From: Planctomycetes bacterium syqfu | GTDB taxonomy: Bacteria; Planctomycetota; Phycisphaerae; Phycisphaerales; Phycisphaeraceae | Reading direction: 5' to 3' | Length of the DNA stretch: 64,000 nt | Assembly: GCA_020974905.1 (NCBI GenBank) | Contig: CP087563.1 | Coordinates: forward strand, 558,001 to 622,000 | Shown: one piece after another, positions 5,517-10,509 of the stretch | Numbering within the stretch: the stretch's first letter is position 1 | Layout: every line of letters begins with the position of its first letter | Notes under the pieces: model-generated | What the model saw: only the letters and a program-made list of their open reading frames with translations | Told to the model about the DNA's origin: nothing | The model's database searches: none | Position numbers and translations under genes: made by a program

Positions 5517-5548
5517 GGTTAAAAGTGCTCTCCAGCGTGATTTTCTTT

Positions 5549-5681
5549 ACCACAGAGACACAAAGTCACAGAGGTAAAACACCGAGATTTAAATGGTCAT
5601 TCAATCCCCACCAGTAACATCGTCCTAATGTCAAAATCAGAAATCTCTGTCTTGAACTCGGTGTCTCTGTGACTCTGTGGT
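5549..5681. repeat. Dispersed inverted repeat, copy A (ACCACAGAG...CTCTGTGGT)
   Basis: Outer arms ACCACAGAGACACAAAGTCA (5549) and the inverse of ACCACAGAGTCACAGAGACA (ending 5681) enclose a spacer; a nested pair CACCGAG / CTCGGTG sits inside. The right half (CTGTCTTGAACTC then CTCTGTGACTCTGTGGT) is nearly identical to the right half of copy B at 9270-9354. It lies between two minus-strand genes and could fold as a long hairpin, possibly ending transcription of the coiled-coil gene. Confidence 0.8.
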
Positions 5682-5701
5682 GGATTCCCTCACGCAACGT
5701 C

Positions 5702-7090
5702 TTAGCGTTTGTAGTAACCGACCATCGACAGGAAGCGATTCTGGTTGAGGATCGGGATCGACAATTCCTTGGCCTGCTTGACGAGTCCGAAGTAGGCCTC
5801 GTAACGCTTCATGGCCTTGGCGTGGCGTTCGATGGCCGTTGGGTCCACTTCGTCTTCTGCCGGTGCCTGAGGGAACGCAGGTTCCTGACCGAGAATCAGG
5901 AAGTCCACGTCGTAAGTCAGCTTGGGATTGTCGCCCTGCTGCGTGGCATCAGAGACGAGAATGCCGCCCCACTTGAGGATCATGTTCTCAACACGACGAC
6001 GGTCGGTCACTGATAACTGGCCGATTTGATCAAGGTCAAATTCGCCATAAACGAAGAACTTGAACTTGAGTTCCGGATCGTAGATCAGGTTGGCAATAAG
6101 ATCACCGGTGAAGATCTGTTCATTGTCGGGGATACGAACCACGCGGGCGACACTGGTGGTTTCAAAGACGTTGATGACTTCGATGGTAGCCTTACCGCGG
6201 TAGTTGCCTTCGTTGTCTTTGACCACGCCGATTTTCGGATCGTAGATTTCAAACGTCATGCCGGGGATGACATGGCTTGATTGTCCGAGGTCGATGTAGA
6301 CTGCGTTCTGTTCGACGAGAATTGAAGCAACTTTACCATCAACCAACGTGGATGGGTCGATGTTGGCTTCCTGGCTCACGCGACCGGAGTGCTGACTTTC
6401 CAGACGGGCGATGCGTTGTTTATAGACTTCGATTTCAGACTTAAGCTGACCTTCGAGACTGTTGAACTTGGCTTTTTCGTCCTTGGCTTGATCACGTACT
6501 TTGGCAAGCTGCGAAGCGATGGACTTCTGTTCGCGTTCCGCCTTTTGCTGGAAAGCTTCATAGTCCTTCTCAAGCTTATCCAACTGTGCTTTGAGTTTGT
6601 TGACGGAGTTGCGGTATTCGTTTTCGACCTGGTTTTTGGCGGTCTCAGCAGCAGAAGCACGGCGCGTTGCCGTATCATACTTCTTGTTCAGTTCGTTCTG
6701 CAGTTCCTTTGCAGACTGTTCTTCAGCACGCAGACGTTCGATTTCAGGAATCAAAGCTTTGACTTCCAGGGCTTTCATGCGTCCGTCGATACCTTCGATG
6801 GGCGTTTCAGCCAAACCGATGAACCCCTTGAGTTGGCTGTTGACTTCCATCAATTCGCCGACGACGGATTTATTCTGATTCTGAAGCATGCCCCGAATCA
6901 CGTCATTGCCTGAACGCTCTGACGGACGGACATACCGATCGAGTTCCACAGATGCACTTTGTGCCTGCTGCTGGGCAACTTCAATCTTGGTATAGAAAAG
7001 AATTGCAAAAACCAAGCTGGTTAAAAATGCAATCCCCAACAGAACGATGGCCCAAATAGATCCACTTGAACCGCCACCTGAGCGCGCCAT
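5702..7090 (-). CDS. Membrane-anchored coiled-coil protein with BRCT-like C-terminal domain
   Basis: Start placed at ATG 7090 because AAGGAG precedes it by eight bases and it opens with MARSGGGSSGSIWAIVLLGI, a short cytoplasmic tail then one membrane segment (about residues 10-32); a longer in-frame start at 7177 lacks these. Residues 40-255 are charged heptad-rich coiled coil, residues 260-340 beta-rich (VDGKVASILVEQNAVYIDLG), and the last about 110 residues carry FFVYGEFD ... MILKWGGILVSD ... VDFLILGQEP, the order of elements in a BRCT fold (strand, helix, GG turn, D-[FY]-L-I/V-x-G). The BRCT resemblance is by eye. Function unknown; envelope or chromosome-envelope scaffold are options. Confidence 0.82.
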   Translation of the reverse strand: MARSGGGSSGSIWAIVLLGIAFLTSLVFAILFYTKIEVAQQQAQSASVELDRYVRPSERSGNDVIRGMLQNQNKSVVGELMEVNSQLKGFIGLAETPIEGIDGRMKALEVKALIPEIERLRAEEQSAKELQNELNKKYDTATRRASAAETAKNQVENEYRNSVNKLKAQLDKLEKDYEAFQQKAEREQKSIASQLAKVRDQAKDEKAKFNSLEGQLKSEIEVYKQRIARLESQHSGRVSQEANIDPSTLVDGKVASILVEQNAVYIDLGQSSHVIPGMTFEIYDPKIGVVKDNEGNYRGKATIEVINVFETTSVARVVRIPDNEQIFTGDLIANLIYDPELKFKFFVYGEFDLDQIGQLSVTDRRRVENMILKWGGILVSDATQQGDNPKLTYDVDFLILGQEPAFPQAPAEDEVDPTAIERHAKAMKRYEAYFGLVKQAKELSIPILNQNRFLSMVGYYKR

Positions 7091-7317
7091 AAACCGACTC
7101 CTTAATGCGTGGGAACAGGTTATCCATCCCTGTAGGTTTGTAAGTGTCTTAGGTTTCGACTGTTTCGTCAAGCTCAAAGCATGACCGGCTAGCGGTCAAA
7201 ATGTCACAAACCACTGATTTGCTCAGTTTGAGGGAGAATTTGGTCTTTAATATAGCATCTGACAAGTTATTTTGCACTGGTTTTCTGAACGTGCTTGGAT
7301 TTACACAATCTATATGA

Positions 7318-7413: not shown

Positions 7414-9363
7414 TCATTGCAGCGATCCAAGCACTTTGGAGACTTGGCTGATGGTGTAGCTGTCGGACTTGAAAACTTCCTTGCCGTTGGCATCGTAAAT
7501 CACCAGCAAGGGGATGGTGACCCGCCCTGCTTTTTCCAGCAAGGCAGAGCCTTGAGGGTTGGCACTGGTCAGGTCAACTTTCATGGGGATGACCTTGCCG
7601 GTACGCAGGAGTTGGACCACTTTCTCGCTGTGAAGCACCTGATGCTCCAACACCTGGCAGTTGAGGCACCATTGTGCGGTGAAGTCCACCATGACCGCTT
7701 TGCCGTCGGTTTGAGCTTGCTCGAATTTGGCGGGGGTGTACATGACCCAGTCAATGGGGCCTTTGTCCGTCAGTGATCGTCCCATGGCTATGCTCCCCCC
7801 AGCCATGATGAGTCCGATGATCGCCCATGTAATGGCAGCCGGACGCTTGGGGCCACCGAGTTTGATACTACGGATAGCCAGCCAGAAACCCGCAGCAGTG
7901 AGAATGCCGCAAACTAACCACCAATGCCAGAGTCCCGGTTCGTCAGGTGGTGTGGTCAGTAGACCGTTAAGTCCTACCCCCAGGAAATACGCCCCCGCAG
8001 CCAGCAGGCAAAGTCCAAGGATCTGCTTGACCAATAGACTCACCGGTCCTGCGGAGGGCATTTTCTTGGCCAAGGCTGGGAAGGCACTGAGAATCAGGTA
8101 TGGGATCGCCATCCCGGTACCGATGGCAGCAAACACCGCGACGGTGACCAATGGTGGTTGTGTAGCCGACCATGCCGCTGCTGCGCCCATGAAGGGTCCG
8201 GTGCAAGGTGTACTCAGGACCGCGGTCATGATGCCGAAGAGCACCGAGCCGGCGAAGGTGTCATGCTTTGGGGTGACGTTGTAGACCTTGGTGGGCAATT
8301 TGATATCAAACAGACCGCACATCCCGATTGCCAAAGCGCAGATCACCACGCCCATCCCGACGGTAAACATCGGATACTGGAAAAGCTGATTCACCTCGGA
8401 AAACCCGGACAATCCGGCAATGGCAATCCCCAGTGCAAGCCAGAATCCAAGCACACCCAGTGACATGAAAATGCCGAGTAACAAACCCTTGCCACGCGTC
8501 TGGGCGGACTTATGCAGCAACATGATTTTCAGGGGGATCACCGGCAAAACACACGGGGTGAGATTCAGTAGCGCCCCACCAAACATGGCAACCAAAAGCA
8601 GTCCGAGCATGCCCCCCAGACCACTGCCATCCAGCGAGAAACTCAGGCCAAAGGCGTCAAAAACCACCTTGCCATCACCTGTCGCAACTGTTGAGTCTGT
8701 ATTGGATGCGGTGAAGTTTTCAAGCAGATCGGTGTCAAACGAATTGAAGATATCCAACGTTTGAGCATCCGCAAAAACCTGCGAATCTCCCACCGTCATC
8801 GGCACGGAAATGATCTCGGTTTTAGGAGCTAGGCAGCTTTTATCATCACATGTCTGATACCGCACGGAGATGTCAATGTTGTACTGACCTGCAGCCACAT
8901 TCTCATTGACCATCACCGGCAGGTAGAACACGGACTTGCCCTCATACACCGGCAAATCAATGGGACTACCCGTATACGTCACCGGCAGGACATGCGCTTC
9001 AGGTCGTTGCAACTGCCCTGCTGTGAGCCAATCCGTCGAATCCGCCAGTTTCACCTGTGTGGGAATCAGGTAATTCAGTTCACTGGGAATCATGTCCGCA
9101 GCCCCATTGACATGCCAGGGTTTCTGGATGTCCAAGGTGATGGCAATGACGAATTTGCTTCCCGGCGCTGTCTGCTTAGCCATACTGACTGCAGAGATTT
9201 TGACGGGTTGAGGTTGCGCAAAGAGGTTCTGTGCATTTGCTTTAGGCGAGTTCAAGCTTGACAGGATTAACCACAGAGTCACAGTGACACAGAGATAAAA
9301 AGAAAAGTGATTTCTTACTCTGTCTTGAACTCCGTAGCTCTGTGACTCTGTGGTGAAAGCCAT
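7414..9363 (-). CDS. dsbD: DsbD-type thiol:disulfide interchange protein (DsbD alpha + DsbD TM + thioredoxin)
   Basis: A 649-residue protein when started at ATG 9363 (GGAG 11 bases upstream); starting at 9501 would run into fliM. Order: signal peptide ending near ANAQ (residue 44), an N-terminal DsbD-alpha/DsbC-like domain with the Cys pair in CDDKSCLAP, eight or so membrane helices with LTPCVLPVIPLK and STPCTGPFMG carrying the redox cysteines, then a thioredoxin domain with AQWCLNCQVL. It moves reducing equivalents from cytoplasmic thioredoxin to periplasmic proteins such as c-type cytochrome maturation factors. Odd feature: residues about 4-32, including much of the signal core, are encoded by repeat copy B. 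It is divergent from fliM, 117 bases away. Confidence 0.9.
   Translation of the reverse strand: MAFTTESQSYGVQDRVRNHFSFYLCVTVTLWLILSSLNSPKANAQNLFAQPQPVKISAVSMAKQTAPGSKFVIAITLDIQKPWHVNGAADMIPSELNYLIPTQVKLADSTDWLTAGQLQRPEAHVLPVTYTGSPIDLPVYEGKSVFYLPVMVNENVAAGQYNIDISVRYQTCDDKSCLAPKTEIISVPMTVGDSQVFADAQTLDIFNSFDTDLLENFTASNTDSTVATGDGKVVFDAFGLSFSLDGSGLGGMLGLLLVAMFGGALLNLTPCVLPVIPLKIMLLHKSAQTRGKGLLLGIFMSLGVLGFWLALGIAIAGLSGFSEVNQLFQYPMFTVGMGVVICALAIGMCGLFDIKLPTKVYNVTPKHDTFAGSVLFGIMTAVLSTPCTGPFMGAAAAWSATQPPLVTVAVFAAIGTGMAIPYLILSAFPALAKKMPSAGPVSLLVKQILGLCLLAAGAYFLGVGLNGLLTTPPDEPGLWHWWLVCGILTAAGFWLAIRSIKLGGPKRPAAITWAIIGLIMAGGSIAMGRSLTDKGPIDWVMYTPAKFEQAQTDGKAVMVDFTAQWCLNCQVLEHQVLHSEKVVQLLRTGKVIPMKVDLTSANPQGSALLEKAGRVTIPLLVIYDANGKEVFKSDSYTISQVSKVLGSLQ
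9270..9354. repeat. Dispersed inverted repeat, copy B, inside the dsbD signal-peptide codons
   Basis: Arms ACCACAGAGTCACAG (9270-9284) and its exact inverse (9340-9354) enclose a short spacer; the inner right part CTGTCTTGAACTC is shared with copy A at 5549-5681. The whole element lies in frame within dsbD and is read on the minus strand as FTTESQSYGVQ...CVTVTLW, providing the n-region and start of the hydrophobic core. Confidence 0.85.
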
Positions 9364-9480
9364 ATGTTTAAATACTCCAACTTGTCTGAACATGCTCGAT
9401 CCCGTAATTTGAAGCCAATCGGCCTGATGTGCCGATAACTGTATCAAAGTCTTACACCCGTTTGGACAGGTAGTTGCCAC

Positions 9481-10509
9481 ATGGCCGAAATTCTTGACCA
9501 ATCTGAAGTTGATGCCCTGTTAGCCGCCGTAGACGGTGGTGATGTCAATACGGGTGAAAGTGACGGTCCGGAGTATGTGTACACGTCGGTCAAAAAAGGC
9601 CGGTACCTGTACAACGCCGAAATCCGCCCGTATGACTTCAAACGCCCCGAACGCGTCAGTAAAGACCAGATGCGTGCCCTGGAGACACTCCACGAAGGAT
9701 TTGCCCGGGCATTTGGTGCAGGTCTGTCGGGGTTCATGCGGACGATTGTGGAGGTCAAGGTTGCCAACATCGAGCAGATGACCTTCAGCGAGTTCACGCA
9801 CAGCCTGCCCAACCCGACTTGTTTCAACCTGCTGGCGGTCCAACCGCTGGATGGCAATATTTGCCTGGAACTCTCGCCACTGATCGTGTATCCGATCATT
9901 GACCGACTTTTGGGGGGTTCCAATGCTGATCTTTTCATCCCGCAGCGTCCTTTGACGGCTATTGAACAACGTTTGGTACAAAAAGTAACCAATAAAGGCA
10001 TGATTGCACTCGAAGAAGCCTGGGAATCGATCACCAAGCTCTCCGTGTCCCATCAGGACATTGAGTCCAACCCGCAACTGGTCCAAATTGTTCCACCCAA
10101 TGAAGTGGTTGTGGTGGTCGGCTTTGAAATCAAGATGGGTGGGCGCGCAGGTACCGCCAGTTTGTGTATCCCCTACAACGTCATCGAACCGGTGATGGAG
10201 AAACTCAGCAACCAGACATGGGCACAGTACAAGCGTAACCGCCAGGACGCCCAACTCCGCCATCAGCTCTCCAAGCAATTGGATGTCGCCCGACTCACCG
10301 CTTCGACTTTGCTTGCTGAGACCACCATCAAACTCTCGGATCTGATGAACCTCCAACCCGGTGACCTGATCGTCACCGAAAAGCCGGCTTCAGGTCCATT
10401 GACTCTCTGCATCGAAGGCAAACGCAAATACATCGGCCACATCGGCCAACACAAGGGCAACCGTGCCTTCAAGGTCAAACGCAAGTACCACCCCAAAGAC
10501 CGCGTGTGA
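9481..10509 (+). CDS. fliM: Flagellar motor switch protein FliM
   Basis: The 342-residue product begins MAEILDQSEVDALLAAVDGG, the CheY-P-binding N-terminal peptide typical of FliM, followed by the CheC-like middle domain (with GLSGFMRTIVEVKVANIEQM and LLGGSN) and a C-terminal SpoA/FliN-like domain (LAETTIKLSDLMNLQPGDLI). It forms the C-ring that switches rotation and binds FliG and FliN at the cytoplasmic face. No other flagellar structural genes flank it; the only other motility-related gene seen is an FlgM-like gene at 54.5 kb. The SIR2-like gene begins 34 bases downstream on the same strand. Confidence 0.97.
   Translation: MAEILDQSEVDALLAAVDGGDVNTGESDGPEYVYTSVKKGRYLYNAEIRPYDFKRPERVSKDQMRALETLHEGFARAFGAGLSGFMRTIVEVKVANIEQMTFSEFTHSLPNPTCFNLLAVQPLDGNICLELSPLIVYPIIDRLLGGSNADLFIPQRPLTAIEQRLVQKVTNKGMIALEEAWESITKLSVSHQDIESNPQLVQIVPPNEVVVVVGFEIKMGGRAGTASLCIPYNVIEPVMEKLSNQTWAQYKRNRQDAQLRHQLSKQLDVARLTASTLLAETTIKLSDLMNLQPGDLIVTEKPASGPLTLCIEGKRKYIGHIGQHKGNRAFKVKRKYHPKDRV

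Follow-up and report, generated by a model that had tools for sequence, protein, structure and literature searches.

A short, dispersed palindromic repeat appears to encode much of the predicted export leader of DsbD in Planctomycetes bacterium syqfu, within a 64,000-nucleotide stretch of DNA (hereafter the window; contig CP087563.1, positions 558,001 to 622,000, or G000:C1:558001-622000) of a genome that forms a single contig of 7.38 Mb (G000). The dsbD copy would be a gene-less relative of elements carrying a GxxExxY nuclease gene, recruited in frame, with members of the same family standing at the leaders of three other genes; taken as a whole, we regard this reading as probable. Comparisons were made with three genus mates, designated G001, G002, and G003.

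The Repeat within the dsbD Leader

The gene dsbD occupies positions 7414–9393 on the minus strand, and the element copy lies within it at 9264–9361 on the same strand (98 nt; in gene sense GGCTTTCACC...GGTTAATCC), corresponding to nucleotides 33–130 of the open reading frame (ORF) and codons 11–44; assignment of its last six bases (TAATCC) to the element is tentative. The 15-nt arms are intact, as originally predicted, with ACCACAGAGTCACAG (9270–9284, plus strand) being the exact inverse of CTGTGACTCTGTGGT (9340–9354, plus strand). In gene sense the latter is the 5′ arm, encoding TTESQ (codons 14–18), and the former is the 3′ arm, encoding VTLW (codons 37–42). A wider pairing joins 9267–9299 with 9325–9357 (79% complementary over 33 nt), and the element extends beyond the 5′ arm (GGCTTT). 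The predicted RNA fold of the repeat strand has an energy of -41.9 kcal/mol (z -5.8), a stability equaled by 0 of 200 shuffles.

The repeat is indeed dispersed, as claimed before this analysis. A covariance model built from 26 copies, including that in dsbD, retrieved at least 95 matches at no fewer than 51 distinct places in G000 when 150 of 1701 first-look candidates were scored; the dsbD copy itself scored 86.5 bits (E 3e-18), and the weaker matches include kindred word families (CGCAGAG, ACACAGATG). An arm pattern gave 35 matches, compared with 0 for a reversed control. Copies frequently end in GGCTTT or ATGA beside ACCACAG, and ATGGC was found within 14 nt of an arm at 9 of 81 readable ends (51 copies, 102 ends examined) against a background of 1.8%, indicating that the repeat at times brings an ATG. 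Three copies (L122, L123, and L125) have the flank GCTTAAAACGATGAACC in common, suggesting that they sit within a larger repeated unit.

An open reading frame runs through the repeat into DsbD (Pfam DsbD_TM and thioredoxin). The likeliest start is the ATG at 9391–9393 (MFRQVG...), giving a protein of 659 residues, with ATG 9361–9363 and GTG 9280–9282 as alternatives. Translation more likely begins ten codons above ATG 9363, at 9393, judging from the alignment of this upstream ATG and its surroundings in all four genus members. A genus-wide start at ATG 9363 was rejected, as neither G001 nor G003 has an ATG there. The original prediction placed the repeat at about residues 4–32, a numbering that holds when counted from ATG 9363; counted from the probable start at 9393, the arms cover residues 14–42, and the repeat encodes about residues 11–41 (to 44 with the tail), supplying the polar n-region and a large part of the hydrophobic core.

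The resulting leader, MFRQVGVFKHMAFTTESQSYGVQDRVRNHFSFYLCVTVTLWLILSSLNSPKANA|Q (9232–9393, minus strand), contains four Lys/Arg and two Asp/Glu before the core, a best 12-residue hydropathy of 2.29 at LCVTVTLWLILS, and a proposed cleavage site, ANA|Q, after residue 54. Judged by hydropathy and by eye, it displays the basic n-region, hydrophobic core, and A-X-A-like site of a Sec signal peptide. Cleavage at ANA|Q is suggested by the AQ that follows the leader, aligned, in all four dsbD orthologues. Alignment with G003 and G002 also shows that 9232–9263 (minus strand), where the hydrophobic core ends and the cleavage region lies, is native rather than repeat-derived; the earlier claim that the repeat encodes much of the signal core stands with this correction. 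Were translation to begin past the repeat, which the original prediction named as refuting it, DsbD would be left without a hydrophobic core: from the arm to the conserved AQ, the sole ATG, GTG, or TTG is a TTG at codon 47.

In the proposed mechanism, a palindromic, gene-less GxxExxY relative would have inserted in frame into the dsbD leader, probably before G000, G001, and G003 diverged, a date suggested by the shared position and by a relic in G003. Translation would proceed from the upstream ATG through the element, with a polar stretch encoded by the purine-rich 5′ arm and a hydrophobic one by the pyrimidine-rich 3′ arm. Together with the remains of the native core, the hydrophobic stretch would form a long signal peptide of Sec type, cleaved at ANA|Q, and DsbD would be exported by means of this largely repeat-derived leader.

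Conservation of the dsbD Leader

DsbD of G000 is 91, 73, and 67% identical to its orthologues in G001, G003, and G002, respectively, with no internal stops. At the same place in the G001 leader stands another in-frame copy of the repeat (TTETQSHRDRKR...SISVPLWF), and in the G003 leader the left arm survives as a DNA relic (score 30 versus a best shuffle of 24 among 2000 shuffles). Toward the 5′ side, G003 shares GTTGGA and GGCTTT with G000, and TGATAGCCAT, which resembles the element end (P 0.19), lies roughly at the expected place. A candidate relic in the G002 leader was rejected (P 0.42–0.75 versus shuffles); that leader looks ordinary. The orthologues therefore do not share the leader residues in the absence of DNA similarity, and the central proposal of the original prediction, that a noncoding repeat was taken into a gene as an exported-protein leader, appears to hold. 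Outside the genus, where 26 loci were fetched, the exact words CACAGAG and CTCTGTG were absent from all 13 dsbD leaders checked, most of which look ordinary by eye. Just beyond the end of dsbD in G001 (L002:1385-1495), an inverted repeat of another type (GTGATTAGGGATTTGGGATT) was observed.

Further Probable Leaders from the Same Family

Genes associated with other copies were sought by a scan for ORFs and coding scores at 111 copy loci (51 in G000, 40 in G003, and 20 in G001). Thirty ORFs running at least 210 nt beyond the element were listed, of which the 14 with the best coding score of the six frames were kept and 16 were dropped. Nine of those kept are in G000, and in four of these nine both start and leader depend on the element; these genes are dsbD, one for a WD40 protein (MLYTTHHAKFNLPQLCLLALCLCVSVVHPLRLHA|Q), one for a GspH-type prepilin, and one for a further prepilin (N_methyl). 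The dsbD leader is accordingly one of at least four in this genome. Five candidates, hisD (L128), a DUF1549 protein (L133), pyrF (L149), GH4 (L153), and GT4 (L154), were judged not to be leader cases, each having a plausible start or signal downstream of the element.

The element is present at the leader of the WD40 and GspH orthologues in both G001 and G003 and at that of the N_methyl prepilin in G001 only, this last gene having no match in G003 or G002. Between G000 and G001, the elements are 94% (WD40), 92% (GspH), 73% (N_methyl), and 68% (dsbD) identical. The G002 WD40 leader resembles a right arm of the ACACAGATG type (score 34 versus a maximum of 22 in 1000 shuffles; left arm P 0.03). 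As in dsbD, AQ follows the leader in all four WD40 orthologues, and the best 12-residue hydropathy ranges from 2.2 to 3.3 across the eight dsbD and WD40 leaders scored. Each of the three frames in which the 3′ arm can be read serves in at least one of the leaders. In both prepilins an ATG adjoins the element, and the upstream gene stops about 2 codons (N_methyl) or about 7 to 25 codons (GspH) before the ATG/element region; a start within the element is possible for these two genes. That the leaders of the WD40 and the two prepilin-like proteins derive from the same repeat family is evident from their DNA, and the element would act in them as an export leader. In G003, a GTG at the element edge of L192:1-1128 may start an exported protein (VVKKAFCLNLCLSMLLCGSFLGQSTVHAQ).

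Length changes at these sites come in multiples of three. With the leader sites chosen on G000 alone, 30 rows of comparison (20 with G001 and 10 with G003) were reduced to 15 and 9 sites by dropping five rows that duplicated a G001 site already compared, together with the row L145-L181 (whose flanks matched over 33 and 41 nt). Between G000 and G001, the four leader sites differ by 0, 0, 0, and +3 nt, such that all four keep the frame, compared with 3 of 11 other copies (Fisher one-sided 0.026). Two of these other copies (L136 and L150) lie beside a further copy that was matched to the same target in G001 and are less surely paired; their exclusion leaves 2 of 9. Against G003, multiples of three were found at 3/3 leader sites and 2/6 other copies, and pooling both genomes gives 7/7 and 5/17 (Fisher one-sided 0.0023, from comparisons that are not independent). 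Substitution ratios were 0.32 in the WD40 leader and 0.89 in that of GspH, with 0.18 and 0.32 in the respective mature parts.

Coding Properties of the Palindrome

Fifty G000 copies were read on both strands in three frames, yielding 300 readings that are not independent of one another. A 12-residue window with hydropathy of at least 1.6 was encoded in 157/300 of these readings, in 32/300 readings of shuffled copies, and in 79/900 of flanking DNA. Open readings numbered 77/300, 39/300, and 409/900, and readings both open and hydrophobic 56/300, 7/300, and 52/900, respectively. Because polar codons come from the purine-rich arm and hydrophobic codons from its complement, the order of n-region followed by core comes free with the palindrome. 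Random sequences are able to serve as secretion signals.

Probable Relation to GxxExxY Nuclease Elements

The four genus genomes contain nine genes of the GxxExxY family (TIGR04256, PF13366) at six distinct places, as defined by flank matches; Pfam assigned the three members scanned to PDDEXK_3. Inverted word repeats bracket all nine, with scores of 21–41 versus shuffle maxima of 11–13, and among 208 mock genes, taken from this window only, the maximum was 13. At one place, occupied in two genomes (L103 in G001 and L104 in G003), the bracketing words are those of the dsbD repeat, AACCACAGAG(T/G)CACAGAGACACAGAG. The four GxxExxY genes of G000 itself carry other words. Across the phylum, the family is present in 27 of 59 sampled genomes. 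Of 29 new loci returned (L236-L264), six cut by contig ends were left uncounted; among the 23 full-length loci, brackets exceeded their own shuffle maximum in 18 and did not in five. The words often differ between genomes (CACGGAG, CACGAAG, ACACAGAT), and a few brackets are built differently, for example from a purine run in L256.

From these shared ends, the short palindrome looks like a gene-less form of the GxxExxY element; the 98-nt dsbD copy, which has no GxxExxY gene, is classed only as a likely derivative. The gene-bearing form would be the autonomous one, its mobility and the part played therein by the nuclease being putative. A search for a clean empty site at the G000 counterpart of L103/L104 found none, a different insert being located there. 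This insert (L266:1780-2280), at the position where G001 and G003 hold the GxxExxY element beside a dnaJ-like gene, contains GGGGTT-type words and an ORF, the product of which we take to be a four-helix-bundle protein.

Upstream of dsbD, its divergent neighbor fliM occupies 9481–10509 on the plus strand. A second, longer copy of the repeat (5544–5686) lies about 20 nt beyond the stop of the ORF at 5702–7177, where G001 also has a copy.

Alternative Explanations

Several observations weigh against recruitment of the repeat as a leader. The dsbD leader is long (54 residues), with about 30 mostly polar and in part acidic residues and a strong hairpin, and open readings are rarer in repeat copies than in flanking DNA (77/300 versus 409/900). 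The right arm in the G003 dsbD leader is not significant against shuffles (P 0.19–0.45), and the consensus used in testing the G003 relic was picked after the alignment had been viewed. In the length comparison, leader orthologues were found via the protein and other sites via the repeat, so that the two sets were sampled differently; the substitution ratios, low in the WD40 leader (0.32) but not in that of GspH (0.89), come from few sites and are indecisive. No GxxExxY gene of G000 has a dsbD-type repeat within 1.5 kb. Most puzzlingly, identity between the G000 and G001 copies in dsbD is 68%, whichever orientation is compared, although their flanks are 88 and 95% identical, and neither copy is closer to its counterpart than to other copies (best 77 and 76%). 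Simple descent hence fails for this copy, one of the pair having been exchanged, re-inserted, or very rapidly changed. This divergence, along with the resemblance of the G002 WD40 leader to the other word family, would suit a hot spot struck independently in different species rather than an inherited insertion. We consider that doubtful, given that at WD40 and GspH the copies in G000 and G001 appear to be inherited and that, toward the 5′ side, GTTGGA and GGCTTT are common to the dsbD leaders of G000 and G003.

It is also conceivable, if unlikely, that the element is tolerated between the real start and a native core that works alone, with nothing recruited. The native leader end and cleavage site are retained, and the best window in G003, VLIAMVLILLSL, spans the likely end of the element; in G000, however, the best window has 8 of its 12 residues ahead of the end of the 3′ arm, removal of codons 11–44 leaves 20 leader residues and no full core, and the WD40 core lies mostly within the 3′ arm. 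A start at the GTG inside the 3′ arm (9280–9282), giving MTLWLILSSLNSPKANA, would limit the contribution of the repeat to a start codon and a short core. Both G000 and G001 have an in-frame GTG here, and G003 has an ATG close by, but such a leader would lack a basic n-region, its start codon would sit in the hairpin stem, and the upstream ATG is aligned in all four species, making this start improbable. We give very little credence to an unexported or nonfunctional dsbD whose frame is open by chance: a quarter or so of repeat readings (the 77/300 above) are open by chance, yet DsbD is conserved without internal stops in all three genus mates, and the frame is kept at four genes. Recruitment into the dsbD leader remains the preferred reading. 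A broader proposal, on which our judgment is evenly divided, is that GxxExxY-type palindromes constitute a recurring, ready-made source of export leaders. Polar-then-hydrophobic in about half of their frames and sometimes ending with a start codon, they could, by a single insertion ahead of a gene, create or restore its signal peptide or prepilin leader, to be refreshed later by exchange between copies.

Comparison with Known Systems and Implications

Among the matches listed in the open-licence portion of PubMed Central (PMC), no title concerned this repeat, these leaders, or a link between GxxExxY and repeats. Related phenomena are already in print: in-frame palindromes in Rickettsia and predicted signal peptides derived from miniature inverted-repeat transposable elements (MITEs) in Yersinia. 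Rickettsia palindromic elements (Ogata et al., as described in PMC2229807 and PMC10969869) are palindromes of about 105–150 bp retained in frame in conserved protein genes, where they are described as neutral or slightly detrimental. The likeness to the present repeat, in-frame palindromes kept in conserved genes, is one of way of working and not of sequence; the difference is that the repeat here sits in N-terminal leaders and has a nuclease-bearing partner. In Yersinia, the predicted signal peptide of YPO1552 is partly made by RU-2/YPAL repeats (Delihas 2007), and in other genera the signals of similar proteins are unrelated to it (PMC2759123, PMC2229807). That case comprises putative proteins and predictions, with YPO1552 conserved in two close species; here, conserved DsbD and three more genes are involved, and the frame is kept between more distant species.

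The repeat resembles prokaryotic MITEs in being short and gene-less, in having terminal inverted repeats and many copies (at least 51 places in G000, with kindred word families among the weaker matches), and, at one place in the genus, in sharing its ends with a gene-bearing, putatively autonomous form. It differs from them in that no target-site duplication, empty site, or transposase has been demonstrated for it.

These leaders offer a concrete, species-compared case of small palindromic repeats joining conserved proteins at a position where many hydrophobic sequences can serve. They also suggest a simple sequence reason for it: a palindrome of such composition encodes its own polar and hydrophobic halves. 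The link of the GxxExxY nuclease family to inverted word repeats, in turn, makes testable the question of what moves these repeats.
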